DNA of 64,000 nt, taken from assembly GCF_045679555.1 (NCBI RefSeq), contig NC_092099.1, positions 12,786,076 through 12,850,075 of the forward strand. Direction: 5' to 3'. The stretch is from Salvelinus alpinus (Eukaryota; Chordata; Actinopteri; Salmoniformes; Salmonidae). The position numbers and the translations under genes are program-made. Each line of letters begins with the position of its first letter. Within the stretch, counting starts at the first letter, position 1. The notes under the pieces are model-generated. The model did no database searches. It was not told the DNA's origin and saw only the letters and a program-made list of their open reading frames with translations. Positions 34,601 to 53,470 of this stretch are shown piece after piece.

Positions 34601-37600
34601 GGTCAAAAGTAGTGCACTATAATGGGTGCCATTTGGGGACGAAACTTCAGTCTGAGGGTGGAAATATCACTTCCTAGGTGTTCAAAGGGAATGTTCACTC
34701 CAGCTGAGCTCCGGGATAACAACTCATCACTGAGTGGTGGAATTATAACACATGACACTTCCCTAGGCCTTAAGTGATTGTTCATTCCAAATGTTTGTCA
34801 AACGTTTTTTTTAAGATCTCAACAGTGGTCTAGTAGCAAGAGTCCAAGTCCCCCCACATCTGTTTTGTCTGACATGACGAAGTTAGATGACGGTGCCTGC
34901 CTGTCTTTTCAAATCATTTGGGACCGAGGCGCCGTATAGCTGGATCTACGCAACAGATGGCATGATGGGACGTGGACTCATTTCTCCCTTCTGAGAAATG
35001 GAAAACATTTGCCGACTTTGATTTTGGAGTGAACTATTACTTTGATTTTATTTTATTTGCATCTCTTTTAGTCCTTAAACATTAAAATACAATGTATAAT
35101 ACAATCACATTTTCACATATAACACACTGACATATTGCCTTTAACTCTTCTAGGAGCGCTCTAGAGAAGATCATGGCCCGTATTCACAAAGCGTCTCAGA
35201 GTAGGAGTGCTGATCTAGGATCAGGTCCCGCCTGTGCATATAATCATCTTCGTTATGATCTAAAAGGCTAAACTGATCCTAGATCAGCACTCCTACTCTG
35301 AGACACTTGATATATATATATAGTCAAAATTGTATTATGAACTGGGTGGTTTGAGCCATGAATGCTGATTGGCTGAAAGCCGTGGTATATACAGTGTACC
35401 ACGGGTATGACAAAACATTTATTTTTACTGCTCTAATTACGTTGGTAACCAGTTTATAATAGCAATAAGGCACCTCAGGGGTTTGTGGTATATGGCCAAT
35501 ATACCACGGCTAAGGGCTGTATCCAGGCACTCCACGGTGCATTGTGCATATGAACAGCCCTTAGCCATGGTATATTGGCCATAAACCATGAGGAATATGG
35601 CCAATACTCCTCGGGCCTTATTCCTTAATTAGAACCTCTAATCATGATCATGTGTTTGTAATGTGTTCTCAGTGGGACGGAGTGGGCCCCATCCCCGGCT
35701 TCTCCAAGTCCCCCAAGGGGGCAGAGATGTTGTGGCACCCAGCCGTGGTGAAGCCCTACCTGACCCTGCTGGCTGAGAGCTCCAACCCTGCCACTCTGGA
35801 GGGCTCGGCGGGGTCCCTACAGAACCTGTCTGCTGGGAACTGGAAGGTATGGCGAACACTACGGAGTACACACTACACAGCACCCAGGACAGGAGATGAC
35901 GAGAACACTAGTCTACTGTGTGTTGTTTTCCCCTGTACAATGAATAGTCTATTAGCTATGTAAAGTGAATACATTTTAAAGGGGAACTCTCCTCAGTGAA
36001 ACAAATGTCAAAAGTCACTTTTAGTGCTTTCTCCTAAACCCCCTAGTTGTTCATGTTTAGCTTCTGGGACAAGGAAGGATGCTAGGTCAAGCTAGATATC
36101 CAGCTGAAAGTCGTGTGTCAGTGGCTCTTGGTTATTTCAGCTCTAGGACATTTATCACAGGGGCTATGACATCATTGTTGTCTGGTTTTCTGAAGAAGAA
36201 AAAACATGTCTTTAGTACTATGGCTGTACTACAAATTTCACTGCGCCTATCCGGTGTATGTGACAATTAAACATATATATATATATATCAAGTGTACACT
36301 CTTAAGTTGATAGAGTCGAAATGTCCTCTCTGTGTCGTCTCTGCGTTTGTACTAGTTTACGGCGTACGTCCGTGCGGCGGTGCGTAAGGAGAAGGGTCTG
36401 CCCATCCTGGTGGAGCTGCTGAGGATGGACAACGACAGGGTGGTCTGCTCTGTGGCCACCGCCCTGAGGAACATGGCCCTGGACGTCAGGAACAAGGAGC
36501 TCATAGGTGAGGACCAAACACTGGCTCCATTACAGATGCCGGACAGATCTCACAACACCTGGCTAGGTGTTTAACGTATCAGATGGATAGGTGTTTAACG
36601 TATCAGATGGATAGGTGTTTAACGTATCAGATGGATAGGTGTTTAACGTATCAGATGGATAGGTGTTTAACGTATCAGATGGATAGGTGTTTAACGTATC
36701 AGATGGATAGGTGTTTAACGTATCGGATGGATAGGTGTTTAACGTATCAGATGGATAGGTGTTTAACGTATCAGATGGATAGGTGTTTAACGTTTCAGAT
36801 GGATAGGTGTTTAACGTTTCAGATGGATAGGTGTTTAACGTTTCAGATGGATAGGTGTTTAACGTTTCAGATGGATAGGTGTTTAACGTATCAGATGGAT
36901 AGGTGTTTAACGTATCAGATGGATAGGTGTTTAACGTTTCAGATGGATAGGTGTTTAACGTATCAGATGGATAGGTGTTTAACGTATCAGATGGATAGGT
37001 GTTTAACGTATCAGATGGATAGGTGTTTAACGTTTCAGATGGATAGGTGTTTAACGTATCAGATGGAAAGGTGTTTAACGTATCGGATGGATAGGTGTTT
37101 AACGTATCAGATGGATAGGTGTTTAACGTATCAGATCACCACATCATATGATATAACAGTTTGATGCCGACTGCGCAGTCGATAGGGTGGCGCCCAACCA
37201 TTGGTTGATACAATGCATCTGCAATGTAGTCGGTATGGAACGCAACCAACCAGTACAGTAGGCTATGTACATGTGCTATACAAGCACAGATCAAATAAAT
37301 GGTCAACCAACACTATACACTGAGTGTACAAAACATTAGGAACATTTTATTATATTGAGTTGCACCCCTTTTGCCTCAATTAGTCGGAGCATGGACTCTA
37401 CAAGGTGTCGAAAGCGTTCCACAGGGATGCTGGACCGTGTTGACTCCAATGCTTCCCACAGTTGTGTCAAGTTGGCTGGATGTCCTTTGGGTGGTGGACC
37501 ATTCTTGATACACACGGACACTTTTGAGCATGAAAAACAGCATCAAAAACAGTTTTTTGACATACTCAAACCAGTGCACCTGGCACCTACCACCATACCC

Positions 37601-40600
37601 TGTTCAAAGGCACTTAAACCTTTTGTCTTGCCAATTCACCCTCTAAATGGCACACATACATAATCCATGTCTCAATTATCTCAAGGCTTTAAAATCCTTC
37701 TCTAACCTGTCTCCTCCCCTTCATCTACACTGATTGAAGTGGATTTAACAAGTGACATCAATAAGGGATCATAGCTTTCACCTGGATTCACCTGGTCAGT
37801 CTATGTCCGGGATGGGCAACTTTGATGGGGGTGGGGGCCACAAAAAAACAAACTCATCATGAAGGGCCCCACTGGTTCATGGGTCTGCGTACCCACATCC
37901 ACCCCCCACCTTGCAAGCAAAACCTTTTAGCGGCCCCCCTTGGGACGGAATATACAAATATACGTTTTAAAGTTAATTTCTTGCAATTCTGCTCATTTTG
38001 CCATGGGGCGTAGAGAAAATCTTGCCATTTTAAAGCACGTTTGCTGCAATTCTACACCTTTTTCCATTGGGCAGAGAGAAGATTTTGTCATTTTATAACT
38101 CATTTCATCCAATTTTACTAATTTTGCCATGGGGTGGAGAGAAAAATGTGTAGTTTGGAGTTAAATGTTTGACGTTTTTAACACGATAACTGATGATCGA
38201 TGGGCCCCACCCCGGTCAGTAATTCGACTATGCTTACTACAGTACATGTTTAGATAGCTGGTCGCTAGAGTAACTTACCAATCTAAAATAAATTAGCTGA
38301 CATGGGCTAATTGATGGACTGCTGATGAACAACCAAATTTAGAAATTGCACCTTGTGTATTCTATTATTCTAACTCTCAACAGTAAGTTGAGACCCCGAA
38401 TGAGTTGGGTGAAATTGGGGGTCCGCATGTGGCCGGTGGGCCGCCAGTTGCCCATCCCTGGTCTATGTCATGGAAAGAGTATTCTTAATATTTTGTACAC
38501 TCAGTGTATTAAAAAAAAGGGAAAAGATGAAATGGAAAATAAGAGGTTTCAGATGAAGTAGAACCAGAAGATCTATGTTCACGTCTAGTAATCTAACTGC
38601 TGATTATATGCCCAGATTGCTACCCTTCATCCCAGTTCTTCTTGTTTTTTGTGAAATCACCCCTTTTCAGGGAAACCAGGTTTTTATGGGCTAGCTATGT
38701 GGAAATAATAATGAGTTAGTGTTCCAGCGAGGCAGAGGCAGCAGCAGAGCTTGCAGCCTGAGAGATGGGGGAGATAATGGGGGGGAGAGGGGCTGTGGGG
38801 TGTGGAGAGGTACTCTGGAGGGGCTGATCTTCTGAGGGAGACTCAGGGGGAAAAACAAGTGATTTTAACGCAGGGTCTGGGGGGCACTAATGCTATGTCC
38901 TATAGGAAAGGTACATGGCAGGCTGTGGCAGGACAACTCAAGGTGAACAAATGTAGCATCAGCAAAGTACAAAAGTACACGGTGTACTCTAGGTCTCCTG
39001 CCCTAGAGGAAGGCATCTGCAGTACAAATACATTATGTAAGACACGGTATATCAAAAATGCAATGAATGTCTCTTTATTTCCGTTTTGTCTCTCTCTCTC
39101 TCTCCCTGTTGCGTTCCAGTTTTATTTAAAGGTGTAGCTAGTTCATTTATTTGCTGTTAAAAAGTCAAATAGAACAAAATGTCTGTGGAGGTAAGGATGA
39201 GGAAGCAAGAGTGGGTTTATAAAGAAGCCTTGCCATAATCTCGATCGTAAATTCGTAACAGAAATTATAAGTACATAATACCCTCCCTCCCTCCCTTCCA
39301 GGGAAGTATGCGATGAGGGACCTGGTGAACCGTCTCCCTGGGGGGAACACCACCCTGCTCTCTGACGAGACGGTGGCGGCCATCTGCTGCACCCTGCACG
39401 AGGTCACCAGCAAGAACATGGAGAACGCCAAGGCACTGGCCGACACGGGCGGCATCGAGAAGCTGGTCAACATCACCAAGGGCAGGGGAGAGAGGTGAGA
39501 GAGAGGCTTCAGCTGCTGCTCAGACAAAGGGTGCGTCGCAAATGGCACCCTATTCCCGTTATAGTGCACTACTTTTCAGTCTACTGCTACTACTTTAGTT
39601 GTTTACTATATAGGGGATAGGGGTGCCATTCGGGATGCACACAGAGAGCACGAGGAAGGACAACTTGTGCTTCCACACAGAAGCTTGCTCTAGGCTCATG
39701 TGCTGAGGTTACACCCCGGAATGGAGTGAGAGCAATTTCAAACAGTTGAGAGTAGACTCATTTTTTAACCACAGAAACATGCCATGCCATGTATTTGCCG
39801 TATAGTCCTAAGAGGACTCAGTTGTAACTTCTCAGGGGTAATGTGTGGTGACATGCATCTCTCTGTCCGCAAAGGTACTCTATGAAGGTGGTGAAAGCTG
39901 CTGCTCAGGTCCTCAACACACTGTGGCAGTACAAAGACCTGAGAACTATCTATAAGAAGGTAAGGGAATGACCAGTGTTGGGATGAGGAGGCTAAATACA
40001 GTAGGGCTACGTCCCAATTATCTCTCCTTCCTGCCAAAGTGTGCACTTGTTCACTTCCCTTCATTGAAAGGAAATGGCTGGTGTATGAGATATGGCGGAA
40101 ACTCCCACAAGCCCGTGTCGCCGCCAATCCAATGCTTTTCGATTTGTGGGAAGTAGTGAACAAGTGTACACTTCAGGAGAAAGGAGATATTATTGGGACG
40201 CAGCCCAGGTTTTTGTGGCTCAAACTAACCACTGTCTCCTTTCTCTGCTGGCCTTTAGGACGGATGGAGCCAAAACCACTTCATCACACCGGTATCCACT
40301 CTAGAGCGCGACAGGTTCAAGTCTCAGCCCACCCTCCCCACCAGCAACATACAGATTTCACCGGTCAACCAGTCAGGTCAGCCTAGCCACATAAACAATA
40401 ATTCACCTAGATTGCGTCCCAAATGGCACCCTATTCCTCAGTTTTTAAAAAATTATTCCTGGTCCACATTTTTGTTTTTGCCCTAGGTTAAAAACTCAAA
40501 TGTGGACCCCTTTGGGGGTGCAGGATTAAGAAACACTGTCTTAGTGCACTATTTTTCACCAGGGCCCACAGGGTTCTGGTCAACATGAATGCACTAGATA

Positions 40601-43600
40601 GGAAATGTGGAGCCATTTGGGACGTTGCCCTAGATAAGGACACAAAGACGGTTCAATTCAAAAATGTCATCCTTCTTACCTCCGTGTTCTGTTGTCCACA
40701 GCTGGTAGTTTCATCCTTCTTACCTCCGTGTTCTGTTGTCCACAGCTGGTAGTTTCATCCTTCTTACCTCCGTGTTCTGTTGTCCACAGCTGGTAGTTTC
40801 ATCCTTCTTACCTCCGTGTTCTGTTGTCCACAGCTGGTAGTTTCATCCTTCTTACCTCCGTGTTCTGTTGTCCACAGCTGGTAGTTTCATCCTTCTTACC
40901 TCCGTGTTCTGTTGTCCACAGCTGGTAGTGCCACCTCTTCTCCTGCAATACTGGGAATCAAAGAACACCGTTCTGATTATCAGAGGGCACCGTCAACTAT
41001 GCAATTTTATAATAACCAAGGGGACAACAATGTTCATAAATATCAATATACAGGTAAGCGATGTGCGGACAGAATTCTCATGATCTCAGAATTATTACTG
41101 TACATAAAACACAGTATATCATGTGAGACTTTGGAATGTGATTGAGAATGTGTCAGCCATGTACACCAGACCGTGATTAAAGTATCCCCTAGGGTTATTT
41201 TCACCTCTATGTAGGCCGTAATCCATTTATCTCCCCTCACCACTCCCAGGAATCCCATTCCATGCCCCCTCTCCCCCAGCTCCACCACGACCACCCTATC
41301 TCCCTCTTTCTTATCGCTCTTATTGGGAGCTGGAGGCTCTTGGACGATCGGCTAAGTTCAAAAGAGCACTTGAGCCTTTTTGTTGCGTTTAAGTGGGTCT
41401 GCTGATCAATAGAGTTGCTGGTCCACCCGCATTGTGAGCCACTTGGCTGTGCAGCCACTACAAAGCGGCCGTTGTCAGTTGCCCTGAGGAACAGTAGGGC
41501 TACTTCCCAAATGGCACCCTGTTCCCTATGTAGTGCACTACTTTTTGACCAGAGCCCTGGTCAAAAGTAGTGCACTGCATAGGGAATAGGGTGCCATTTG
41601 GGACGTAGGCTAGGTATGCAGGGCACCCAGACTCGCCGCTGCCAGATGGACAACCCTCAATGGGGCGCTGAGTAAACAGAGCTGCAGCCTCATCCACATT
41701 AACTCCGCCTACCCCTACGGTCTACCCAGCCACACTCTTTGGGCCAGCCATGAAAACCCAGAATGCTGGGAACAAGAGTGGAAAATGACTTTCAGGATTC
41801 CTCTGGCTTGAAAATGGGCCAAGGAAAATACCATCCCACAGGCTTTGCAAACAATAAGACATTGGTGCCCAACCATTTGACTGTATGTTCTTAGTCTGTT
41901 CTTTCCAGCGTAGCTGTATTTGACCGTTATACAGAGATCATGCCTATGGGAATGTGTGGAATGGGATATTTGACATACTGTACGCTAACAAGTCAAGTTC
42001 ATGGCGAAGCTGAAGTTATACCATTATGTTGTGCATTTCTCTGCCAGGGACTGGAAAGCCGCCGCCATATTATATCGGATCTTACTCCTCGCCTACAAGA
42101 GAGGACCCCAGAAGAACACAGGTAAATACAATAGAGACTCTAAATCAATCCCTTCTGGTCGGACATCCATCTCCATCTAGGAGACATCCATCTCCATCTA
42201 GGAGACATCCATCTCCATCTAGGAGACATCCATCTCCATCTAGGAGACTAGGAGACATCCATCATATCAGCCATTGTGTGAGTTAGAGTGGATGTGACTG
42301 CTGTGAGAGGGAAGGGCTGGGCGTCTCAGTTACCTAGATAGCACCCAGGGAGAGGGAGCTCAGTTCCCTCCCTCCACTCCCTCTCAGACTGGACAATCAG
42401 GATATTACACCCAACTAGAGATCAACCGATTATGATTTTTCAACACCGATACCGATTATTGGAGGACCAAAAAAGCCGATGCATCGGCCGATTAAAAAAA
42501 ATGTTTTTGTAATAATGACAATTACAACAATACTGAATGAACACTTATTTTAACTTAATATAATACATCAATAAAATCAATTTAGCCTCAAATAAATAAT
42601 GAAACATGTTCAATTTGGTTTAAATAATGCAAAAACAAAGTGTTGGAGAAGAAAGTAAAAGTGCAATATGTGCCATGTAAGAAAGCTAACGTTTAAGTTC
42701 CTTGCTCAGAACATGAGAACATATGAAAGCTGGTGGTTCCTTTTAACATGAGTCTTCAATATTCCCAGGTAAGAAGTTTTAGGTTGTAGTTATTATAGGA
42801 ACTATAGGACTATTTCTCTCTATACCATTTGTATTTCATATACCTTTGACTATTGGATGTTCTTATAGGCACTATAGTATTGCCAGTGTAACAGTATAGC
42901 TTCCATCCCTCTCCTCCCTCCTCCCTGGGCTCGAACCAGGAACAACGACAACAGCCACCCTCGAAGCATCATTACCCATGCAGAGCAAGGGGAATAACTA
43001 CTCCAAGTCTCAGAGCGAGTGACGTTTGAAACGCTATTAGCGCGCACCCCGCTAACTAGCTAGCCATTTCACATCGATTACACCAGCCTAATCTTGGGAG
43101 TTGATAGGCTTGAAGTCATAAACAGCGCAATGCTTGACGCACAACGAAGAGCTGCTGGCAAAACGCACAAAAGTGCTGTTTGAATGAAGGCTTACGAGCC
43201 TGCTGCTGCCTACCACCGCTCAGTCAGACTGCTCTATCAAATCATAGACTTAGTTATAACATAATAACACACAGAAATACGAGCTGTAGGTCATTAATAT
43301 GGTCGAATCCGGAAACTATCATCTCGAAAACAAGACGTTTATTCTTTCAGTGAAATACGGAACCGTTCCGTATTTTATCTAAGGGGTGGCATCCATAAGT
43401 CTAATATTCCTGTTACATTGCGCAACCTTCAATGTTGTCATAATTACCTAAAATTCTGGCAAATTAGGCGGCCCAAACTGTTGCATATACACTGACTCTG
43501 CGTGCAATGAACGCAAGAGAAGTGACACAATTTCACCTGGTTAATATTGCCTGCTAACCTGGATTTATTTTAGCTAAATATGCAGGTTTAAAAATATATA

Positions 43601-44673
43601 CTTCCGTGTATTGATTTTAAGAAAGGCATTGATGTTCATGATTAGGTACACATTGGAGTAACGATACGCACCGCATCGATTATATGCAACTCAGGACACG
43701 CTAGATAAGCTGGGAATATCATCAACCGTGTGTAGTTAACTAGTGATTATGATTGTTTTTTATAAGATACATTTAATGCTAGCTAGCAACTTACCTTGGC
43801 TTACTGCATTCGCGTAACAGGCAGTCTCCTCGTGGAGTGCAATGAGAGGCAGGTGGTTAGAGCGTTGGACTAGTTAACTGTAAGGTTGCAAGATTGAATC
43901 CCCCGAGCTGACAAGGTGAAAATCTGTCGTTCTGCCCCTGAACGAGGCAGTTAAACCCACCGTTCCTAGGCCGTCATTGAAAATAAGAATGTGTTCTTAA
44001 CTGACTTGCCTAGTTAAATAAAGATTAAATAAAGGTGTAAAAAAAAATTTTTGCCCAAATTGTTATGAAAACTTGAAATCGGCCCTAATTAATCGGCCAT
44101 TCCGATTAATCGGTCGACCTCTACACCCAACCCTATATAGCCATGCAGCTTGAGTTTCGATACACATTGCCGGGCACATATTAAGCCTAGTCCTCGACTA
44201 AAAAGCTTTTTTTAATTGAGATTCTCTATTGATCTTGTTTTTTAGGACTAAGTTTAATCTGTGTCTGGGAAAGTGCCGAAAGAGTGTAAATTAGCTGTTA
44301 CTAGAATTTCAACCACAAATGACCCATAAATCAAACAAACACTGGACTTCGAAGTAGATATGTTCCTGCCTTTCACATAAACAGACCTGATTTAGTGTTG
44401 CTCCTCTCGTCTCCACAGCAGCAGGTGTACTACACCGAGGAGCCGAGCAGGCGGAACTACGACACCTACAGAATGTACCTGCAGTCTCCACACGGCTACG
44501 AGGAACCCTACGCGGAGGAAGTAGTTACCTTCCCCCCCACGGCAGACTACAGCTCTCAGTCGCATGGCCACGGACTCAAATCCACCACGAACTACGTGGA
44601 CTTTTACTCCACCACCCGGAGGCCTTCCTACAGGGCGGAGCAGTACCCAGGTTCGCCAGATTCCTGGGTATAG
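1202..44673 (+). CDS. ctnnd2: delta-catenin (catenin delta-2), 3' part of gene, 15 coding exons
   Basis: Joined exons 1202-1396, 14108-14318, 15797-15929, 20015-20228, 31759-31942, 33022-33139, 34321-34509, 35673-35846, 36356-36506, 39302-39494, 39875-39959, 40259-40376, 40922-41053, 42048-42121 and 44419-44673 total 2426 nt. They encode about 807 residues with matching phases and AG/GT borders throughout. I recognise the protein from memory of vertebrate CTNND2: [18 protein letters not shown], armadillo motifs such as [12 protein letters not shown] and [10 protein letters not shown], and the end YPGSPDSWV. Delta-catenin is a p120-family armadillo protein that binds the cadherin juxtamembrane region and, through its C-terminal PDZ ligand, synaptic scaffolds; it is chiefly neuronal. 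The human protein is about 1225 residues, so roughly the first 420, including the coiled coil, lie outside the window. No frameshift or stop is seen, so the gene looks functional. Which fish paralogue (a or b) it is cannot be decided here. Confidence 0.96.
1766..1866. repeat. TC / ACTC microsatellite
   Basis: About 30 bp of (TC)n pass into (TCAC)n/(ACTC)n tetranucleotide repeats. The Leu/Ser- and His/Ser-rich reading frame across it is an artefact of the repeat. Confidence 0.95.
2148..2220. repeat. Hairpin element, copy 4
   Basis: CCCCAAATGGCACCCTATT-TAGTGCGCTACTTTTGACC, with right arm AATTGTGTGCCATTTGGGACG. The left arm is well preserved and the right inner arm is decayed. Confidence 0.82.
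2221..3265. other. Intron sequence, mostly unique
   Basis: No exon or complete mobile element is seen. At 2873-2925 a short antisense L2-type LINE tail is recognisable (ACATTTTAGTCATTTAGCAG, then ATGCCCTTATCCAGAGCAAC), the complement of the standard fish L2 3' end. Confidence 0.5.
3681..5563 (+). mobile_element. hAT transposon inserted in the Tc1 copy
   Basis: It is flanked by a perfect 8-bp duplication GTCTACAG (3673-3680 and 5564-5571). The right terminus reads TTTGACTTTGACACCCCTG; the left (CATATATGTCAGAGTCAAGG) is a diverged inverted match. At 1883 bp it carries the C-terminal half of a transposase. The TSD fits the nnnTAnnn preference reported for Buster-type hAT elements. Confidence 0.9.
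3858..4991 (+). pseudogene. hAT transposase, N-terminally deleted (GTF2IRD2/Charlie-like)
   Basis: An uninterrupted frame covers the middle and C-terminal parts of a hAT transposase: [57 protein letters not shown], and the dimerisation region [34 protein letters not shown]. The family resemblance is to the Charlie8-derived domain of GTF2IRD2. The BED zinc finger and first catalytic Asp region are absent, the left end having been joined directly to the middle, so it is a deletion derivative and not autonomous. The frame stays open upstream to 3624 through Tc1 sequence, but that part is chance. Confidence 0.85.
5546..6470 (+). pseudogene. Tc1 transposase pseudogene
   Basis: After the hAT insertion the Tc1 coding sequence resumes with [38 protein letters not shown] (helix-turn-helix) and [20 protein letters not shown]. 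Near 5960 the frame is broken, and later pieces ([31 protein letters not shown]) lie in other frames with stops. Hence it is inactive. The N-terminus lies on the far side of the hAT insertion. Confidence 0.85.
6801..6856. repeat. (GT)n microsatellite
   Basis: About 28 uninterrupted GT dinucleotides, followed by shorter GT runs near 6869-6885 and 7030-7065. Confidence 0.97.
7611..8163 (+). pseudogene. LINE ORF1-like fragment (L1 ORF1p / transposase_22 fold)
   Basis: The frames encode [33 protein letters not shown] and then [20 protein letters not shown] and [16 protein letters not shown]. The pattern of a short RNA-binding (RRM-like) protein with GIPE, AHRI and FxxYxDKxxIL motifs is typical of ORF1 proteins in L1-like and other fish LINEs. 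One frameshift lies near 7905. Confidence 0.7.
8300..10214 (+). pseudogene. LINE endonuclease-reverse transcriptase remnants
   Basis: Broken frames at 8310-8560 (APE endonuclease: AETH, YRRDRN), 8597-8956 ([14 protein letters not shown]), 9320-9568, and 9608-9910 (RT entry: [36 protein letters not shown]). No complete catalytic core is present. Confidence 0.75.
10440..10725 (-). mobile_element. 5'-truncated antisense LINE tail
   Basis: ATCACATTTGATTTGTCACG, GAGATGCTTACGTCCCAACA and GGGGTACCAGTAGCGAGTCG are diverged matches to the 3' end of the antisense LINE at 23045-27895. It is a short dead copy inserted in the older sense LINE. Confidence 0.65.
10840..10935. repeat. Imperfect ~30-bp tandem repeat
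   Basis: GAACCGGAGGAAACTCC recurs about four times with variants (AACCAGAGGAAACTCCG, AACCGGAGAAAAATCCG). Similar GGAGGAAACT phrases recur at 13003-13015. Confidence 0.7.
10979..11948. repeat. 48-bp minisatellite, ~20 copies
   Basis: The unit contains CTTAGCTAACCCTTTACGGG followed by TGGTAGACTGTAACACATTA. Because 48 is a multiple of three and the unit lacks stops in one frame, a 315-residue frame (11008-11955) of 16-residue repeats stays open; I regard it as non-coding. Units differ by TATATC/TATACC and by a rarer AAGCATTTACGG..GGTTG type, which recurs eight units apart. Confidence 0.95.
12275..12685 (+). pseudogene. LINE ORF2 C-terminal region
   Basis: An open frame of 136 codons encodes a stretch ending [32 protein letters not shown] and [20 protein letters not shown]. 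This is the post-RT domain seen at the C-terminus of L2/CR1-type LINE proteins (the LPPYL...R motif followed by an aromatic W-N-L segment). Confidence 0.7.
13640..13815. repeat. Palindromic MITE-like element (second family)
   Basis: The left arm GGGGAGGACGGCTCATAATA..GGCTGG and right arm CCAGCC..ACGAGCCCGTCCTC are inverted, with ATGGAATGGCATCAAACACA and TTGATACCATTCCACCCATT inside. The outer ends are CCAGTGGAGGGTGCTG and AAGGTGCCACCAACC. Confidence 0.8.
13847..13955. repeat. Hairpin element, copy 5
   Basis: GTCTCAAATTGCACCCTATT..TACTTTTAACCAGAGCCCT, loop, GTAGTGCACTATAAAGG, GGTACGATTTGGGAC. It lies about 150 bp before the 14108 exon. Confidence 0.85.
14108..14318 (+). CDS. ctnnd2: ctnnd2 exon (pre-armadillo segment)
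   Basis: The acceptor TTTCCAG ends at 14107 and the donor AAG|GTAAGC follows 14318. The exon enters in phase 1 and leaves in phase 2. It encodes [12 protein letters not shown], a Tyr-rich stretch ([14 protein letters not shown]) and [18 protein letters not shown], which in CTNND2 immediately precedes the first armadillo repeat. A 12.7-kb repeat-filled intron separates it from the previous exon. Confidence 0.95.
14341..14486. repeat. Short interspersed element with GGGTCGTATTCAT termini
   Basis: It begins GGGTCGTATTCATGACTGCA and ends CTACTGAATATGACCC, an inverted terminal match. Inside are AGCAAAACGTTCTACAGC and CCCTCCCCGTTTCGG. Fragments of the same kind occur near 20930-21010 and 50204-50220. 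It is probably a MITE. Confidence 0.6.
14813..14901. repeat. Hairpin element, copy 6
   Basis: GCGTCCCAAATGACACCCTA..ATTGCACTACTTTTGTCA and ACTAGTGCACTATAAAGG..GAATAGGGTGCCATCTGGGA. The loop is very short. Confidence 0.88.
14902..15589. other. Intron sequence without recognised element
   Basis: Unique-looking sequence. The 60-75 codon frames here show no family resemblance. It leads into the polypyrimidine tract of the next acceptor. Confidence 0.5.
15590..15790. repeat. Polypyrimidine tract (TCTCTGTC-rich)
   Basis: About 200 bp of C/T-rich low complexity with CTGTCTCTCTGTCCCC phrases end directly at the 15797 acceptor. It probably serves as an over-long polypyrimidine tract. Ser/Leu/Pro-rich frames across it are artefacts. 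Confidence 0.85.
15797..15929 (+). CDS. ctnnd2: ctnnd2 exon (armadillo repeat 1)
   Basis: The acceptor is a long natural polypyrimidine run (15590-15796, TCTCTGTC-type) ending TTCCAG. The donor is GAG|GTACGT. It encodes [16 protein letters not shown], then [19 protein letters not shown], the start of the p120-family armadillo domain. It leaves in phase 0. Confidence 0.96.
16480..18235. repeat. Telomere-like minisatellite, 26/32-bp units, ~1.75 kb
   Basis: The unit CCCTAAACCTTTAACCTAAC plus CCATAG (26 bp) is mixed with longer units carrying an extra CCCTAA. The G-rich strand contains TTTAGGG and GGGTTAGG. Marker variants (CTAACTCTAACCC..AACCGAACCC) recur about 467 bp apart and a TTTAAACTAACCC variant about 335 bp apart, showing block duplications within the array. 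Confidence 0.95.
18360..19270 (-). mobile_element. 5'-truncated antisense LINE fragment
   Basis: It starts with TTTATTGGTCAAACAGTTCA, GTGCAGCGAAACGCTTACAG and ends with AGAAGCTGTTTATCAGTCTC, TCGGTCCCAGCTTTGATGCA. The middle holds local duplications (AGATATATTAGCATGAGCTT twice, near 18698 and 18791). It matches the 3' non-coding part of an abundant fish LINE lying antisense to ctnnd2. Confidence 0.75.
19362..19496. repeat. (AC)n and (TC)n compound microsatellite
   Basis: About 37 AC dinucleotides (19362-19436), then GTGTGTCTGTC, then (TC)n to 19496. Confidence 0.97.
20015..20228 (+). CDS. ctnnd2: ctnnd2 exon (armadillo repeats 2-3)
   Basis: The acceptor CTGCAG ends at 20014 and the donor ACAG|GTAAGAG follows 20228, next to a GT microsatellite. 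It encodes [20 protein letters not shown], then [19 protein letters not shown] and [20 protein letters not shown]. These are canonical armadillo helices. Phase is 0 in and 1 out. Confidence 0.96.
20229..20410. repeat. GT-rich microsatellite at intron start
   Basis: Imperfect (GT)n with TGTGCGCTTG phrases begins within 12 bases of the 20228 donor and extends with decreasing purity to about 20410. Confidence 0.9.
20760..20841. repeat. Hairpin element, copy 7 (right end lost)
   Basis: GTCCCATCTGGCACCCTGTT, CCCTATATAGAGCACTACTG, loop, AAGTAGTGCACTATGAAGGG. The terminal GGGTGCCATTTGGGAC arm is missing. Confidence 0.8.
20842..22990. other. Intron sequence, no gene recognised
   Basis: About 2.1 kb with no coding similarity. 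It includes a fragment at 20925-21040 (GTAGACACGAAATAGG..CGCTCTAGAAACGG) that resembles the 14341-14486 family. Small frames on either strand lack motifs. Confidence 0.5.
22991..23044. repeat. Hairpin element, copy 8, left part (split by LINE)
   Basis: GTCTCAAATGGCACCCAGAG, CTCTGGTAAAAAGTACTACA and CTGTGTAGGGAAT then stop where the LINE begins. The missing right arm (AGTGCCATTTGGGAT) reappears at 27906-27920. Confidence 0.8.
23304..24905 (-). mobile_element. Tc1-like transposon (TIR CAGTGGGGCAAAAAAGTATT)
   Basis: Perfect-looking long terminal inverted repeats start CAGTGGGGCAAAAAAGTATT and end in the complement at 24905. TA dinucleotides flank at 23302-23303 and 24906-24907. It is 1602 bp, the full length of a fish Tc1. 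The transposase is on the minus strand. It is inserted in the 3' region of the antisense LINE and so is younger than that LINE. Confidence 0.95.
23518..24540 (-). pseudogene. Tc1 transposase with one nonsense codon
   Basis: It starts [20 protein letters not shown] with two helix-turn-helix motifs ([36 protein letters not shown]). The DDE catalytic motifs are visible: [16 protein letters not shown] and DLNPIEN. The full length is 340 residues, usual for Tc1. The only frame break I see is a TAA at plus-strand 24067-24069, right after WSDETKI; the frame then resumes unchanged. The NPIEN motif is followed by IG where Tc1 proteins normally have LW, so a conserved Trp has become Gly. It is inactive as it stands but a fairly young copy. 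Confidence 0.93.
25006..27720 (-). pseudogene. LINE endonuclease-reverse transcriptase, broken frames
   Basis: Reading 5' to 3' on the minus strand: endonuclease end ([20 protein letters not shown], 26272-27087), the RT entry block ([20 protein letters not shown] and [19 protein letters not shown], 25931-26182), the RT core with FADDT and [20 protein letters not shown] (25481-25909), then [20 protein letters not shown] (25272-25481) and a C-terminal piece in another frame ending at 25006. The catalytic Asp pair is kept, but several stops and frameshifts separate the parts. Confidence 0.85.
27906..27920. repeat. Hairpin element, copy 8, right end
   Basis: AGTGCCATTTGGGAT is the missing outer arm of the copy begun at 22991. 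Confidence 0.75.
27921..28984. other. Intron sequence, no gene or known repeat
   Basis: GC-richer than its neighbours, with a short CA run at 28284-28298. No exon-like conserved frame is found. Confidence 0.5.
28985..29072. repeat. Hairpin element, copy 9
   Basis: GCGTCCCCGAATGGCAGTGG, CACCCTATTTCATATGG, GGTCAAAAGTAGTGCACTAC, ATAGGGAATAGGGTGTTATT. The left inner arm is missing, so the fold is asymmetric. Confidence 0.82.
29586..29640. repeat. (AC)n microsatellite
   Basis: About 24 AC units with one interruption near the end. The rest of 29073-30520 shows no recognised element beyond short CA/CT runs. Confidence 0.97.
30523..30850. repeat. Possible truncated hAT-like or other interspersed repeat
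   Basis: It begins CAGTGTTTCCCCTATATTAA, a typical hAT-like terminus, followed by TGCCGCTGCTAAACCGTTGC and a sequence I recall as dispersed in fish genomes. No matching right end or target duplication is found. Confidence 0.4.
30965..31136. repeat. Hairpin element, copy 10, with duplicated right arm
   Basis: A complete hairpin (GCATCCCAAATGGCACCCTA..ATAGGGAATAAGGTGCCAT) is followed by a second right arm: GTTCAAAAGTATCGCACTAC, ATAGGGAACAGGGTCCCAT. Confidence 0.88.
31137..31758. other. Intron sequence with a short GT run
   Basis: Unique-looking sequence with (GT)n at 31585-31612. The end (CCTCCGTCTTCTCTGCAG) is the acceptor of the next exon. Confidence 0.5.
31759..31942 (+). CDS. ctnnd2: ctnnd2 exon (armadillo domain)
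   Basis: The acceptor CTCTGCAG ends at 31758 and the donor GAG|GTAACG follows 31942. It encodes [20 protein letters not shown], a loop with [15 protein letters not shown], and [12 protein letters not shown]. It follows an 11.5-kb intron that holds the nested LINE/Tc1 insertion. Confidence 0.95.
32445..32556. repeat. Hairpin element, copy 11
   Basis: GCGTCCCAAATGGCAACCTA..AACTACTTTTGGCCAG, loop, CTAGTCGAAAGTCCTGCACG, GAGGTTGCCGTTAGGGACG. Arms are diverged by several substitutions each. Confidence 0.84.
32787..32894. repeat. Hairpin element, copy 12
   Basis: GTCGCAAATACTACCCTATT, ATAGTGCACTACCTTAAACC, loop with CTTATGGGCCC, GAAAGTAGTGCACTGAGTAG, GAATAGGGTAGAATTTGGGA. It lies about 125 bp before the 33022 exon. 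Confidence 0.87.
33022..33139 (+). CDS. ctnnd2: ctnnd2 exon (armadillo domain)
   Basis: The acceptor TTTTTAAAG ends at 33021 and the donor AAG|GTCTGT follows 33139. It encodes [20 protein letters not shown], then [16 protein letters not shown]. Phase is 2 in and 0 out. Confidence 0.95.
33471..33564. repeat. Hairpin element, copy 13
   Basis: CTGTCCTATATAGTGCACTA, CTTTTGACCAGTGCG, GGGTCAAGAAAGGTGCACTA, TAGGGTGCTATTTGGGATA. The left outer arm is shortened. Confidence 0.82.
33893..34262. repeat. 19-bp minisatellite, ~19 copies
   Basis: The unit CTATAGAAACATATCAAAC has variants TTAAAC and CTGTAG. The array ends about 58 bp before the 34321 acceptor, so it lies where the branch point is normally sought. 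Confidence 0.95.
34321..34509 (+). CDS. ctnnd2: ctnnd2 exon (armadillo repeat and basic insert)
   Basis: The acceptor is a CT run ending CTAG at 34320; the donor is CAG|GTGAGC. The exon is a whole number of codons (63). It encodes [20 protein letters not shown] followed by an acidic/Ser stretch and the basic cluster [14 protein letters not shown]. That lysine-rich insert between armadillo repeats is typical of the p120 family and could act as a nuclear-localisation or lipid-binding patch (inference). The 19-bp minisatellite ends only about 60 bp upstream of this acceptor. Confidence 0.95.
34537..34641. repeat. Hairpin element, copy 14
   Basis: GCATCTCAAATGGCAACCCT, CCTATGTAGTGCACCC, TTGGTCAAAAGTAGTGCACT, GGGTGCCATTTGGGGACG. 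It begins 28 bp past the 34509 donor. Confidence 0.86.
35181..35308. repeat. Palindromic MITE-like element (third family)
   Basis: The left arm GCGTCTCAGAGTAGGAGTGC + TGATCTAGGATCAG and the right arm CTGATCCTAGATCAGCA + CTCCTACTCTGAGACAC are nearly perfect complements, with a 55-bp loop. A decayed relative may lie at 49598-49645 (AGAGTAGGAGTGC..CTACTCTGAGATG). Confidence 0.88.
35330..35635. repeat. Interspersed element with internal inverted repeats
   Basis: CCGTGGTATATACAGTGTAC, TGTGGTATATGGCCAATATA, CCACGGCTAAGGGCTGTATC and the inverted AACAGCCCTTAGCCATGGTA, TATTGGCCATAAACCA form a foldable module. I recall similar elements in many salmonid introns; the borders are approximate. Confidence 0.6.
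35673..35846 (+). CDS. ctnnd2: ctnnd2 exon (armadillo domain)
   Basis: The acceptor TTCTCAG ends at 35672 and the donor AAG|GTATGG follows 35846. The length is 58 whole codons. It encodes [20 protein letters not shown], then [20 protein letters not shown] and [10 protein letters not shown], a strongly conserved armadillo segment. Confidence 0.96.
36272..36290. repeat. (AT)n microsatellite
   Basis: About nine AT units in the intron before the 36356 exon. Confidence 0.9.
36356..36506 (+). CDS. ctnnd2: ctnnd2 exon (armadillo domain)
   Basis: The acceptor TACTAG ends at 36355 and the donor ATAG|GTGAGG follows 36506. It encodes [20 protein letters not shown], then [20 protein letters not shown] and [10 protein letters not shown]. 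It leaves in phase 1. The 24-bp minisatellite starts about 55 bp past this donor. Confidence 0.96.
36560..37136. repeat. 24-bp minisatellite, ~24 copies
   Basis: The unit GGATAGGTGTTTAACGTATC + AGAT has variants TTTC for TATC and CGGAT for CAGAT. It starts about 55 bp past the 36506 donor. The 24-bp period keeps a 193-codon frame (36583-37164) open; this is a repeat artefact, not a gene. Confidence 0.95.
37318..38506. mobile_element. Tc1/mariner-like non-autonomous element, split by a hAT element
   Basis: The termini CACTGAGTGTACAAAACATT (left) and TTTTGTACACTCAGTG (right) are inverted. TA flanks both ends (37316-37317, 38507-38508). No transposase is recognised. Without the nested 654-bp hAT copy it is about 530 bp. 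Confidence 0.88.
37807..38460. mobile_element. Non-autonomous hAT element nested in the previous element
   Basis: It is flanked by the perfect 8-bp duplication GTCTATGT (37799-37806 and 38461-38468). The left end is CCGGGATGGGCAACT and the right end AGTTGCCCATCCCTG. The TSD fits nnnTAnnn, as for the hAT copy at 3681. The interior has repeated TTTTGCCATGGGG-type phrases and no coding frame. Confidence 0.92.
38510..39301. other. Intron sequence, no element recognised
   Basis: Unique-looking sequence ending in a C/T-rich acceptor tract (CCCTCCCTCCCTCCCTTCCAG). Confidence 0.5.
39302..39494 (+). CDS. ctnnd2: ctnnd2 exon (armadillo domain)
   Basis: The acceptor CCTTCCAG ends at 39301 and the donor GAG|GTGAGA follows 39494. 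It encodes [16 protein letters not shown], then [20 protein letters not shown] and [20 protein letters not shown]. Compared with my memory of the human protein, the loop after LPGGN is about two residues shorter. Confidence 0.96.
39533..39638. repeat. Hairpin element, copy 15
   Basis: GCGTCGCAAATGGCACCCTA, TTATAGTGCACTACTTTTCA, loop, TTACTATATAGGGGATAGGG, GTGCCATTCGGGATGC. It lies 38 bp past the 39494 donor. Confidence 0.87.
39875..39959 (+). CDS. ctnnd2: ctnnd2 exon (last armadillo repeat)
   Basis: The acceptor CCGCAAAG ends at 39874 and the donor AAG|GTAAGG follows 39959. It encodes [20 protein letters not shown], then DLRTIYKK. This small 85-nt exon is phase 2 in and 0 out and matches the end of the CTNND2 armadillo domain. 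Confidence 0.95.
40010..40200. repeat. Palindromic MITE-like element (fourth family)
   Basis: CGTCCCAATTATCTCTCCTT, GTGTGCACTTGTTCACTTCC at the left pair with GGGAAGTAGTGAACAAGTGT, AGGAGATATTATTGGGACG at the right. It fills most of the 299-bp intron between the 39959 donor and the 40259 acceptor. Confidence 0.88.
40259..40376 (+). CDS. ctnnd2: ctnnd2 exon (C-terminal tail)
   Basis: The acceptor GCCTTTAG ends at 40258 and the donor TCAG|GTCAGC follows 40376. It encodes [20 protein letters not shown], then [10 protein letters not shown] and ISPVNQS. It leaves in phase 1, which fits only an acceptor that restores the downstream frame. Confidence 0.94.
40414..40624. repeat. Hairpin element, copy 16, with nested insertion
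   Basis: The outer arms GCGTCCCAAATGGCACCCTA and GGAGCCATTTGGGACG are kept, with AGTGCACTATTTTTCACCAG inside. About 105 bp (40439-40543) interrupts the left arm. That insert carries its own inverted repeat, GGTCCACATTT/AAATGTGGACC, and ends CAGTTTTT/AAACACTG. Confidence 0.85.
40667..40928. repeat. ctnnd2: 44-bp tandem repeat of the intron 3' end and exon start (six splice acceptors)
   Basis: The unit TCATCCTTCTTACCTCCGTG, TTCTGTTGTCCACAG, CTGGTAGTT is present about six times, identical by eye. It puts TCCACAG|CTGGTAGT acceptors at 40701, 40745, 40789, 40833, 40877 and 40921. Only the last runs on into the conserved exon. The unit is not a multiple of three, so using the nearest upstream acceptor shifts the frame. 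Confidence 0.95.
40922..41053 (+). CDS. ctnnd2: ctnnd2 exon (C-terminal tail) preceded by duplicated acceptors
   Basis: The last of six identical acceptors (TCCACAG ending at 40921) gives an exon reading [20 protein letters not shown], then [19 protein letters not shown]. It matches the CTNND2 tail (GIRDPRSEYDRT and YYNSQGD in human, from memory). The donor is ACAG|GTAAGC. Only this acceptor, or one three units upstream, keeps the frame; the latter path meets an in-frame stop, so 40922 is the chosen start. Confidence 0.93.
41054..41501. other. Intron sequence, no element recognised
   Basis: Unique-looking sequence; nothing coding. Confidence 0.45.
41502..41605. repeat. Hairpin element, copy 17 (near perfect)
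   Basis: CTTCCCAAATGGCACCCTGT, CCCTATGTAGTGCACTACTT, TTTGACCAGAG-CCCTGGTCAAA, AGTAGTGCACTGCATAGGGA, ATAGGGTGCCATTTGGGACG. With almost no loop, the whole 104 bp can fold on itself. Confidence 0.93.
42048..42121 (+). CDS. ctnnd2: ctnnd2 exon (C-terminal tail)
   Basis: The acceptor CTGCCAG ends at 42047 and the donor ACAG|GTAAAT follows 42121. It encodes [20 protein letters not shown], then RRTQ. The SYSSP(T/A)RE motif is conserved in CTNND2 tails. A 21-bp minisatellite begins about 40 bp past the donor. Confidence 0.93.
42158..42260. repeat. 21-bp minisatellite, ~5 copies
   Basis: CATCCATCTCCATCTAGGAG + A is repeated from about 37 bp past the 42121 donor. Confidence 0.93.
42886..43085 (-). 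mobile_element. tRNA-derived SINE-like segment, minus strand
   Basis: On the minus strand a box A-like TGGCTAGCTAG and box B-like GGTTCGAGCCC are in the right order. The copy reads to GTAACAGTATAGCTTCC on the plus strand. A second copy lies at 52968-53195. Confidence 0.7.
43830..44040 (+). mobile_element. tRNA-derived SINE, plus strand
   Basis: Box A TGGTTAGAGCG (43854-43864) and box B AGATTGAATCC (43891-43901) are spaced as in tRNA genes. A conserved body (CCTAGGCCGTCATTGAAAAT) and an L2-like tail ACTTGCCTAGTTAAATAAAG follow, then A-rich sequence. Confidence 0.85.
44419..44673 (+). CDS. ctnnd2: ctnnd2 last coding exon with PDZ-binding C-terminus
   Basis: The acceptor is CTCCACAG|CAGCAG, and the exon is 84 codons plus TAG. 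It encodes [31 protein letters not shown], then [20 protein letters not shown] and [12 protein letters not shown]. The terminal DSWV is the class I/III-like PDZ ligand used by delta-catenin to bind scaffold proteins (family knowledge). The repeated CAG leaves the exact acceptor ambiguous by one or two glutamines. Confidence 0.96.
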   Translation, partial: QQVYYTEEPSRRNYDTYRMYLQSPHGYEEPYAEEVVTFPPTADYSSQSHGHGLKSTTNYVDFYSTTRRPSYRAEQYPGSPDSWV

Positions 44674-45365
44674 GGACTTCTTCTTTGGAGCCCATCTGAT
44701 GAACTCGACCATGAACTTTTATTTGTGTGTTTGTTTAAAAAAAAAAGTGAATCTGAATGTGGGGGAGGAAGTGATGGCAGATGGAGAAACAGAACGTTAA
44801 GCCAAAGAAAGAAGGAAATCAAGGAATGTGGTTGTTGTTTTAAACGAAGAGAGGGAATCATGCAGTGGTGTGTTTGGGGAATGGTCGGCGTTTGGACATC
44901 ATTGTGAGCGACGTTCTGCTCGGTCTAGATGTTAGTTTTTATTTTGGAAACCCGTTGCTGTGGTAGCATGGTGAAGGTGTGGGATATGTGACGGAAGGTT
45001 TGAGTCAGATGGGGAATGTGTATGTGTATGTCTGTAGGCTAAAATGGATCATGAACTCATATCTGTAAAAAAAAATTAAAAAATAAAGTAATCTAAAGAT
45101 GTTAGTTTGTACAGAGGGATCACATTGTATTTGTTCTTAATGTTGAGATTGTGTATGCCATGGAGTGTTGTACATTTCCGTCATTTAATTGTAAATACAG
45201 AAAAAATGCCACCTGGTTTACGCTCATCAGCACTGGTAAAGACTTGTGCCATGTCAAATCTATATTATAGATCTATAAATACAGTATATGAAGAAGGAAA
45301 GAGAGGTGGGAAAAGATTACATCATAACACAAACTTGCAAAGTTAATAAAAGTTGACTTTTGTTT
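44674..45365 (+). other. ctnnd2: ctnnd2 3' untranslated region with polyadenylation signals
   Basis: AT-rich non-coding sequence follows the stop. AATAAA hexamers occur at 45082-45087 and 45345-45350, and another at about 45494. The second is followed within 30 bases by a T-rich stretch, so a transcript end near 45370 is likely (inference). No repeat family is recognised inside it. Confidence 0.6.
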
Positions 45366-45597
45366 TTTCAATGAATTGTGGAATTGCAGACATTTTTGTG
45401 ACTTTGCAGATATTCTCTTTATTTTTCCATTTTCTGTGCTGGACCTTTCATGGGATGGTTCACTGCCATTTTCTTTGCACACCAACCAACAGAAATAAAT
45501 GTGAACGTTTGGTCCATGAAGAGCTCTACAACTCCTCCCTTCTGTTGCTCATACTCCCGTCGTTGCATGCATAATGTAGAAAATGAAGGCAACTGTT

Positions 45598-45758
45598 GCA
45601 TCCCAAGTGCCACTCTATTCCCTACATAGTGCACTTCTTTTGACCACGGTCCCCAAATGGCACCCTATTCCCTATATAGTGCAATACTTTTGACCAGAGA
45701 CCTATGGGCCCTGGTCAAAAGTAGTGCACTATATAGGGAGTAGGGTGCCATTTGGGAA
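45598..45758. repeat. Hairpin element, copy 18, with duplicated left arm
   Basis: A first left arm (GCATCCCAAGTGCCACTCTA..GTGCACTTCTTTTGACC) is followed by a complete hairpin (CCCCAAATGGCACCCTATTC .. GTAGGGTGCCATTTGGGAA). It lies between ctnnd2 and dap. Confidence 0.92.
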
Positions 45759-46375
45759 ACAACCAACATGATAAAGACTGATCAGACACTCAGCATTTGC
45801 TTTGTCTTATTTCAGGACTAGACAATAGACCTTTTCAAATAAACACTTTAAAAGTTGTTAGAACTGACAAAAAATACTGACAATGCAGGCATTGCTTTTT
45901 GTCAGGATGTCAAGTTGTTTTAAACTATTTATTACATAAATAGCAAGCATGTTCCACTAAGATAAATGTGAGATGAGTTCTGTTCAAAAATAATCTCTTG
46001 CCCCTCCCTGTACTCTAGGTCCTTCTTTTAAAAAGTCAAATAGCAATGTATATGCTCCACACAACCAGATGGTGAATTACCATATTGCTTACTTCTATCC
46101 TGCTTTATTCAGATCTGCAAACACAGAGGGGAGTGGCTGAAGGTTGTTTTTGAACTAGGCAATGGTGTTGTATAAACGACAGGATTGGTAGGTAGGAAAT
46201 ATGATTCGATCATAAACATCCTCAATGCGCACCACAGACACAAATGCGCCAATCGATACACTAAATAAAACAATGTAACTTTTTGAGGCTGCTCACGCCA
46301 TATGTCTGGTCCACTCATGTGGAATAAATGAGTCTGCTGCAGCCCCATATGCTGATGCTTGCTTCCTGCATCAGC
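45759..46375. other. Intergenic spacer upstream of dap
   Basis: No exon or mobile element is recognised. It is presumed to hold upstream regulatory sequence of dap. Confidence 0.45.
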
Positions 46376-46405
46376 TACGTCATTTTCCTTTCAGCAGTAT
46401 AAAAG
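46351..46405 (+). promoter_or_regulatory. dap: dap core promoter: inverted repeat, CRE-like site, TATA box
   Basis: GCTGATGC and its exact complement GCATCAGC are separated by 9 bp (46351-46375). TACGTCAT, a CRE-like site on the opposite strand, follows at about 46376-46383, and TATAAAAG lies at 46398-46405. Transcription would start near 46430, giving a short leader to the ATG at 46463. The site identities are inferred from consensus only. Confidence 0.6.
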
Positions 46406-46462
46406 CAACGGAGTTGGTATTGCGCCAGTTTGTGTTCTGTTATTGTTGTTCAGAAGTCGAGA

Positions 46463-46529
46463 ATGGTTCAGCTATCTAAATCTGAAATGAGAGAGAGTCT
46501 TGAATTGAAGGCTGGCCATCCTCCAGCAG
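46463..46529 (+). CDS. dap: dap exon 1 (coding part)
   Basis: Encodes MVQLSKSEMRESLELKAGHP and PA, then a split codon before the donor GCAG|GTATAT. The bases before the ATG read TCGAGA; it is the first ATG downstream of the TATA box. Confidence 0.9.
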
Positions 46530-49500
46530 GTATATTGTTGATTAATTCATACTAATTCGTAATTGTCACTAAACTGCGTATTTTCTTTGTAAAACAATGT
46601 GTTCGATGTAATGGGTTATTTTGAGGAAGTAAGTGTGGTCTACATTCAGTGTATTTACCATATAGGTCTACTCTTCCTGTTGAATAGATTTTTGTTTTCG
46701 TCTTGTGCAAACATTCTGCTACAGTGTTGTTACGCACGCTCAAACCTCAAGTGCGTAGGGGGTAAACTAATACAATATGGAAACTCTTAACGATTGCATG
46801 CAGTAGTAGGCCTAAATGCTCTCATCCTTGCTACTTTAATTGTATTTACCGTCACAATGCGGTATGAAACTTGAATCAGTGTATAGCATAGCCTATTGTT
46901 CAACTGTGGTACATTCTGTGCTCGAGGAACAGGATGGCCAGCATTGAGGTTCATGTAGTTAAGTGAATATTTTCCATGCAGGTTCTTGCTTATACATATG
47001 TTTTTGAGTCATAGTCAGTCAACAGTTTATTAAAATGCTAATTAACGGGATTATTGCGATGCCGCCTTACTTCACAAAGGCGGAATGTCTCTTGGCAGTG
47101 TTGGGGAAGCTAACAGTGCCCTGAAAATTGTTTCCCATGGGACCAGTTCCTTCACACTGGAAGAAATGAATTTACACTAAAGCTACCCTTAAAGATGCAC
47201 TTTGCAGAAATCACTCCGCCATTTCCTGGTTGCTAAAATTCTAATAGTTCGCTCAATTTAAGTTTGTGACAAAGCAAGTGTAGTGTAGAGAATCATTGTA
47301 CCATCTAAACAGCTGTGAAAATATATGATCCATAACCCCAAATATTGTATTTTCAGGTGTTTGAAGCTGTCGTACAAAAGTAAAAGATGCAGAAACTTAA
47401 ACGGAAAGCATAGAAATAGAGCACACAGAACATATCTCCCGCTTATAGGCTAGGTGTCATTGTGAATGATATCTATAACTTAGTTCTATTAATTGTGTTA
47501 GGTCGTCACAAAAGTTACATCCAAACTATAAAAAAATGGAAAATCTGAAATGTCAGACTACAAATTGCAAGAACAGATCACTCTGGAGTCAGATGTTAAG
47601 AGAATGTGTAATTTAGTGTCTTAAAACAATGTGAGAATGAGGCTCAGTGTTTCAAGTAAGAATTGGGCAGGTCTGATGCTGAAAGGGAATTATTGCCTAA
47701 TAAAAAGTGTAGTTCCAGTAGTTGGCTACATGACAAAAGTAATTAACTACTAAAAACGTTTCCAATGCTGAACTAAAATATAAACACAACATGCAACAAT
47801 TTCAACGATTTTACTTAGTTAATGTTCATAAGGAAATCAGTCAAATGAAATAAATGCATTAGGCCCTAATCTATGGATTTTACATGACTGGGCAGGGGCC
47901 CTCTCACTTGAGAGCCAGGCCCAGCCAATCAGAATAAGTTTTTTCCCCACAAAAAGGTTTCATTACAGGCAGAAATACTCTTCAGTTTCATCAGCTGTCC
48001 AGGTGGCTGGTCTCAGACGATCCCGCAGGTGAAGAAGCTGGATGTGGCGGTCCTGGGTTGGCGTGCGACATTTTATTTCAGCTCATGAAACAAGGGACCA
48101 GCACTTTACATGTTGCCTTTATATTTTTGTTCAGTATAGATTTGCATTAGTTCAACTACCACCAAGCTACTGCAAAATGTAATAACATTATTAGTTGAAT
48201 ATATGTACATTGCCTTCAAAGTATTCACACCCCTGGACTTTTCCCACTTTTTGTTACAGCCTGAGTATAAAATGGATTAAGTTAGATTTTGTCACTGGCC
48301 TAATTTCGAAGTGGAATTATGTTTTCAGACATTTTTTTTTTTAATGAAAAGCTTAAATGTTTGCATCAAGTATTCAACCCCTTTGTTATGGCAAGCCTGA
48401 ATGTGCTTAAGTTGCATGGACTCCCTCTGTGTGCAATAATGGTGTTTAACATGATTTTTGAATGATCTCATCTCTGTAGCCCACACATAGAATTATCTCT
48501 AAGGTACCTCAGTCGAGCAGCGAATTAGACCAGGGATGTTTTCCAATGCCTCGCGAAGGGCAATTATTGATAGATGGGTTAAGAAAGACTGATCCCTTTG
48601 ATCATGGTGACGTTATTAATTCAACTTTGGATGGTGTATCAATACACCCAGTCACTACAAAGATACAGGCTTCCTTCCTAACTCTGTTGCTGAAGATGAA
48701 GGAAACCTGCTCCGGGATTTCACCATTAAGGCAAGGTTGACTTGACACAATTACGGAGTGTAATGGCTGTGGTAGGCGGAACAACATTGTAGTTACTCTA
48801 ACCTAATTGACAGCGTGAAAAGTAAGCCTGTACAGAATAAAAGTATCCCAAAACATGCATCCTGTTTCCAATGAAGTAAAACTGCAAAAAATGTGCCAAA
48901 GAAATACATTTCGGCATAAATACAAAGCATTATGTTTGGGGCAAATCCAACGACACATCACCGAGTACCAGTCTTCGTATTTTCAAGCATGGTGGTGTCT
49001 GCATCATGTTATGGGTATGCTTGTCATCAGTAAGGATTATTTTTTTTTAATTATGGATAAAAATGAACTAAATAGAGCTAAGCACAGGCAAAATCGTGGA
49101 GTGGGTGGGAAACCTGGTAGTCTGCTTTTCAACAGACACTGGGAGACAAATCCACCTTTCAGCAGGACAGTCACTTAGAACACAAGGACAAATATACACT
49201 GAAGTTGCTTACCAAGATGACTTGAATGATCCTGAGTGGCCTAGTTACAGTTTTGACTTAAATTAATGGCAAGACTTAAATGGCTGTCTAGCAATGATCA
49301 ACAACCAACTTGATCAAGCTTTTTTTTTTTAAGAATGCAAATATTGTACAATCCAGGTGTGCGAAGGTGATTCAAAAATGTATTGACTCTGGTGTGAATA
49401 CTTATGTACATTTAGAAAACATGTTTTCTCTTTGTCTCTTGGTGGGGGGGGGGGATCAATTTTGAATTCCTTCTGTAACACAATGTGGAATAAGTCAAGT

Positions 49501-50759: not shown

Positions 50760-51195
50760 AGCAACATGTGTTGAAGTTGCCTGAAGGAAACATGTGAAGT
50801 CAACTGTGAAAGACTAGCAGGAAGGGTTAGTTACATGCATGAGAGGACCAACATGAGATGTCAGAAAAGACTTGAATGTTTAATGTTTAGTACTCTAGAA
50901 TCCATTCATCTACTTTGAATTGGTTGCAATTTGTAACTGCTTTTAGGTGAGAAAGTGGAGCTTTGTGGGGATATGGGTGGTGTTCTGCTTACTACAAACC
51001 AGCATTTACTGTGCCTTTTATTAATGAGTGTATGCACGTGAACTAAAACGCACATGGTGGCGATTTTGGAATTGGTATGTTGCACAAGAGGGTATAAGGT
51101 GGATGACTGACTGTTTCATCAGTGTCTGTTTTCATAGTGAAAAGCTTAGCATTTGTTTACGGCTTGAATAAAAAGAAGTTGCATGGCGTTAGAAA
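50760..51195 (+). other. dap: dap 3' untranslated region
   Basis: Non-coding sequence with an AATAAA at 51167-51172. A transcript end near 51190 is likely. Confidence 0.6.
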
Positions 51196-53195: not shown

Positions 53196-53470
53196 CACAG
53201 CACTTTTATGACACAAATCTTGATACAACACTATCTAATTGTGGCGAATAACCTTTGTCAAGGAAATGTCAACCCTGAGGTCATTGTTTCAGTTCCCAAT
53301 ACAATTTCATTACTGCAACTGGTTTCAATTGAAAAAATATTTGTATTTAACCCATAAGAGTCTAAAAAGTCCTGTCTAAAGGGGGGGGGGGGTCTATTAA
53401 CCTATATGGAATCGTTTTAAGAAGGTCATACCAAGGTTAATAATAACCTTAATAATAACCTATCTGATAA

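Follow-up and report, generated by a model that had tools for sequence, protein, structure and literature searches.

The analysed window, the whole 64,000-nucleotide stretch of Salvelinus alpinus DNA, carries a gene of the delta-catenin (p120) family on its forward strand, and one coding exon of this gene is preceded by six tandem units of 44 bp. Judged from its bases, each unit would form a full 3′ splice site, followed by the start of the exon (Table 1).

Table 1. Positions within the window of the exons and acceptor units around the array.
Feature	Position	Strand	Description
Upstream coding exon	40259..40376	+	Peptide ending NQS; donor CAG/GTCAGC; conserved in the C20 duplicate
Six-unit array	40667..40930	+	44 bp per unit; each unit a predicted complete 3′ splice site plus 8 exon bases
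Unit 1 acceptor	40667..40701	+	CTTAC with A at −24, pyrimidine tract, CCACAG
Unit 2 acceptor	40711..40745	+	
Unit 3 acceptor	40755..40789	+	
Unit 4 acceptor	40799..40833	+	Its use, or that of any earlier acceptor, leads to the same TAG
Unit 5 acceptor	40843..40877	+	Its use gives a frameshift, open until a stop in the last exon
Unit 6 acceptor	40887..40921	+	Leads into the conserved reading frame
Affected exon	40922..41053	+	132 nt, symmetric phase; also in the C20, C38 and C10 copies
Next coding exon	42048..42121	+	74 nt
Last coding exon	44419..44673	+	Runs to the stop

An earlier note on this DNA had described a unit made of a polypyrimidine tract, CCACAG and the first eight exon bases, amplified into six identical 3′ splice sites 44 bp apart (40701 to 40921) behind a donor at 40376, and this architecture was borne out base by base. 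Every unit contained CTTAC (A at −24), 12 pyrimidines among the 16 positions from −20 to −5, CCACAG and then CTGGTAGT, which equals the first 8 bases of the exon; the CTTAC motif suggests that each unit could supply its own branch point. The acceptor AGs ended at 40701, 40745, 40789, 40833, 40877 and 40921, and the donor boundary of the upstream exon was located at 40376/40377. TRF reported 6.0 copies of period 44 at 40667–40929, with 100% matches and 0 indels. When the units were compared base by base, five agreed at 44/44 positions and the sixth at 43/44, its sole mismatch being the last base, where the array passes into unique exon sequence. With a 44-bp unit, six copies and 100% matches, the array falls in the unit range of VNTRs (10–100 bp) and is a candidate for one and, as in human CBS 844ins68, a whole acceptor with its pyrimidine tract and the exon start is tandemly repeated. 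The 35-bp acceptor part occurred 6 times in the window, versus a mean of 0.00 in 100 shuffles. Allowing up to 2 mismatches, the 35-bp core was found 6 times in the 2.37-Gb genome (928 contigs), and all of these occurrences lay within the array, so that an origin as a copy of a dispersed element was rejected; a 394-base query (array and exon) likewise matched only the array locus and its C20 duplicate. The perfect identity of the units could also point to an assembly artefact with a true copy number of one or two, but the array (264 bp) is shorter than one long read, the genome search gave no second version of it, and short-read assembly errors usually collapse such arrays, which counts against an error of this kind. 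We consider an artefact highly improbable.

The translated exons of the window matched the Pfam Arm family (1.3e-07), and their best solved chain was catenin delta-1 (1.4e-38); armadillo repeats nearest to catenin delta mark the gene as a member of the delta-catenin family. The name ctnnd2, given to it previously, did not hold. The CTND2 C-terminal peptide printed in a passage of PMC9490041 was used as the ctnnd2 test, and in the whole-genome search the CTNND2-tail pattern matched at four loci (C8, C10, C23 and C30), none of them on the contig of the window. All four read the CTNND2 tail, from which the tail of the window gene differs, and ctnnd2 was rejected on both grounds. The ctnnd2 gene on C23 and the window gene agreed by about 54–81% in the armadillo exons, but by only 28–34% in the exons after them. 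Translation of the mouse Pkp4 primers listed in a passage of PMC6924960 gives NLSYRL and SPSKDSE; the corresponding residues are NLSYRL...SPSKDVD in the window exon and NLSYRL...ANGKDAE in ctnnd2 on C23. At the DNA level the two primers matched at 17/20 and 15/21 positions in the window and at 15/20 and 15/21 on C23, the second primer being non-discriminating with the same best match in both. Pkp4 was thus separated from ctnnd2 by the protein reading of the primers and not by the DNA count. The window gene is apparently pkp4 (plakophilin-4, p0071), a name tentatively preferred over arvcf on the basis of the primers and general background.

The peptide of the last exon retrieved at least seven loci, namely the window's own copy (C14, 100%), its close duplicate (C20, 92%), C10 (61%), C38 (60%) and three of the four ctnnd2 loci. 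We interpret the C14, C20, C10 and C38 loci as two pairs of pkp4 copies, the pattern of a salmonid genome. Collinear blocks linked C20 and the window from end to end, interrupted by gaps and with a single short block out of place, and the coding exons of the two corresponded. One acceptor preceded the affected exon in C20. One acceptor was also found in each of the C38 and C10 pkp4 copies, as well as in ctnnd2 on C23, the one of the four ctnnd2 loci examined. TRF detected no array in a 9.9-kb stretch around the affected exon of C20; read on the other strand, this stretch gave two weak TRF repeats with two to three copies each, scoring 55 and 53, away from the acceptor. The single acceptor of the other pkp4 copies marks the array as a derived feature of C14. 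In this copy the last four exons were open and conserved, and the C20 copy was intact over the same exons; for these four exons the pairwise dN/dS between C14 and C20 was 0.225, and for the affected exon by itself it was 0.19, values that include the time before the array arose.

The unit differed from the C20 acceptor at 9/44 positions, and the units did not differ among themselves. If each lineage changed about 10% of its sites, the last amplification or homogenisation would fall within roughly the last tenth of the time since the C14/C20 split, given no change in 264 bp and a 95% Poisson bound, which constraint on the splice signals loosens. The array was judged young on the identity between its units, although identity alone is no proof of great recency.

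Tandem arrays were abundant around the gene. Those of period at least 10 occupied 5,287 of the 64,000 bases of the window (8.26%), versus 897 of 79,901 (1.12%) in the C20 region. About 14 exons were seen in the window, and one of the 8 acceptor positions checked lay in an array; with about 8% coverage, one array over an acceptor is roughly what random placement gives, and its position needs no special cause. A 24-bp repeat (24 copies, 97% matches) at 36560–37136 started some 50 nt downstream of an armadillo-exon donor in the same gene, and a 21-bp repeat (4.1 copies, 100% matches) at 42162–42248 started about 40 nt past the donor of the 74-nt exon, so that several arrays lie close to splice sites of the pkp4 gene. 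A long intragenic array at 16490–18240 consisted of CCTAACCC-like units of 26 or 58 bp, resembling degenerate telomere repeats. Much of the intron directly before the six-unit array was filled by an element (40407–40625), partly common to C20, which we take to be a common salmonid inverted-repeat element. Further downstream, a 268-residue open frame at 53463–54266, presumably reverse-transcriptase-like, shared 99% identity with a copy that lies out of collinear order in the C20 region, and this similarity suggests a recently active element. The two frames of 45001–59000, out of six, that were compared with Pfam yielded one match, a weak DDE_3 transposase hit at 55093–55212 in one of the frames (24.7 bits versus a cut-off of 28.6).

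The consequences of each acceptor choice were derived by conceptual translation. The last acceptor led through the normal frame to the C-terminal DSWV and, as had been stated before, it was the only one to lead straight into the conserved frame, its upstream neighbour shifting the frame. Use of this fifth acceptor adds 44 nt, and the shifted frame stayed open through two exons and ended 118 codons after the upstream exon, at a stop within the last exon; NMD of such RNA is not predicted, and the DSWV tail would be lost. For the acceptor three units up, the earlier note had reported a run into a TAG. This was correct for that acceptor but not as a lone case, since those two, four and five units up also ended at that TAG, 31 codons beyond the upstream exon. 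With the first four acceptors this TAG precedes the last junction by 199 to 331 nt, and NMD is predicted for RNAs made from any of them. The same outcome persisted for longer arrays, as computed for up to nine extra units. All acceptors beyond the second from the end therefore give one product, and a copy number above three adds no new proteins and shifts proportions only. Skipping of the 132-nt exon, an alternative missing from the earlier reading, keeps the frame and removes 44 residues, and an RNA that retains the intron likewise runs into a stop. In passages from three papers of the open-licence PKP4 literature, the affected exon was not described as alternative. A form of human PKP4 probably lacks an in-frame exon near its end. 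Splicing back inside the array through the CTG/GTAGTT of each unit would create a tiny in-frame exon, CTG; this idea, weighed on the bases only, was set aside, as the donor is presumably poor by the consensus.

We propose, with a probability of about 0.55, that the array is a young minisatellite whose unit is a whole pkp4 3′ splice site and whose last acceptor is used most. Its origin would lie in a series of tandem duplications, starting from a single ancestral acceptor, in just one of the four pkp4 copies detected. All six acceptors are probably competent, being identical and each having its own branch-point-like motif, and with six sites of equal signals position decides the choice. RNA structure masking the upper acceptors received no support from the folding of 431 nt (z = +1.43, with 96 of 100 shuffles at least as stable). 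Passages of PMC9225289 state that the upstream acceptor is generally preferred in pairs at least 20 nt apart, that this preference drops significantly once both introns are longer than 250 nt, and that with long introns the site nearest across the exon is favoured, reversal in every case not being stated there. The introns flanking the affected exon measured 325–545 and 994 nt, above this limit, which supports the last acceptor. Recognition would then operate across the exon and mostly pick the last acceptor, which lies closest to the downstream donor and gives the shortest exon. A passage of PMC2630376 describes human CBS 844ins68, a duplicated intron 7/exon 8 junction in which the distal site is strongly favoured and normal mRNA is made; this passage speaks of a donor, while the title of the work that it cites speaks of a 3′ splice site. 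The distal preference in CBS also leans towards the last acceptor, although the analogy is limited to two sites, not six, and flanking elements may decide the choice there. Taken together, our analysis leans towards the last acceptor being favoured with some leakage. Leakage to the first four acceptors would introduce the stop after 31 codons and expose the RNA to NMD, whereas leakage to the fifth would yield a protein with a different tail, without DSWV.

The upstream preference in widely spaced pairs would, if it prevailed here, turn the array into a partial or complete loss-of-function allele of one duplicate. The upper acceptors are transcribed first and lie nearest to the donor across the intron; were they to win, most C14 transcripts would carry the TAG, far enough before the last junction for degradation, and the intact C20 duplicate could cover the loss. 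The long introns, the use of the distal site in CBS and the still open and conserved last four exons of this copy speak against such an outcome, which we regard as unlikely, though the most serious of the alternatives. Under the preferred reading, that of a young minisatellite with a favoured last acceptor, gain or loss of whole units would leave the last acceptor joined to the exon, so that copy number could drift at little cost, cushioned by the intact C20 duplicate. The array would then be a largely tolerated acceptor repeat, probably with little effect.

A regulated or polymorphic switch was also considered, in which the balance among normal, tail-swapped, NMD-bound and exon-skipped products depends on the number of repeats or on a splicing factor bound to the pyrimidine-rich array. 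Three product classes and an in-frame skip are indeed encoded, perfect copies easily change in number, and a 31-bp repeat at an exon end of human CBS, c.1444_1467+7(16_21), ranges from 16 to 21 copies in people according to a passage of PMC2630376. Against this, no conservation was seen, the array being absent from the other three pkp4 copies found, and a copy number above three adds no new product; a switch is thus rather improbable. We hold equally doubtful a copy-number-tunable poison-acceptor VNTR, in which repeat number would set the shares of normal protein, of a swapped non-PDZ tail (from the fifth acceptor only) and of NMD-bound RNA, with differences from fish to fish that the intact duplicate would permit.

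The six acceptors are identical and self-contained, and position is all that sets them apart. They provide a near-ideal natural experiment on acceptor choice, in which one can ask whether, at equal strength, proximity across the intron or proximity across the exon governs which acceptor is taken. The C20 duplicate offers a control within each cell, and junction reads can distinguish the product classes; C14 and C20 transcripts are separable by 9 differences in the 132-nt exon. Should the array vary in length between fish, it would show how a gene carries a hypermutable repeat over a splice site with its frame kept, since the exon retains the last acceptor whenever whole units are gained or lost.

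Among known systems, close tandem acceptors of the NAGNAG type likewise offer several possible AGs at one intron end. For competing acceptors up to 9 nt apart, the choice falls in the second step, according to a passage of PMC9225289, whereas the AGs described here are 44 nt apart, each with its own branch-point-like motif and tract. The open-licence literature, covered largely through listings, yielded no printed case of a six-acceptor array, nor a VNTR whose unit spans a splice acceptor/exon boundary. CBS 844ins68 resembles the array in that a whole intron-exon junction with its acceptor stands in tandem, but it has two sites 68 bp apart versus six perfect predicted sites 44 bp apart in the window. 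The CBS 31-bp VNTR is, by its notation, a minisatellite that straddles an exon end and extends into the intron; we read the notation as placing it at a donor, and it is polymorphic, whereas the window array lies at an acceptor and is represented by one assembly. The two CBS cases, 844ins68 and the 31-bp boundary repeat, are the closest known, and six perfect acceptors in a row would be a new variation on this theme.
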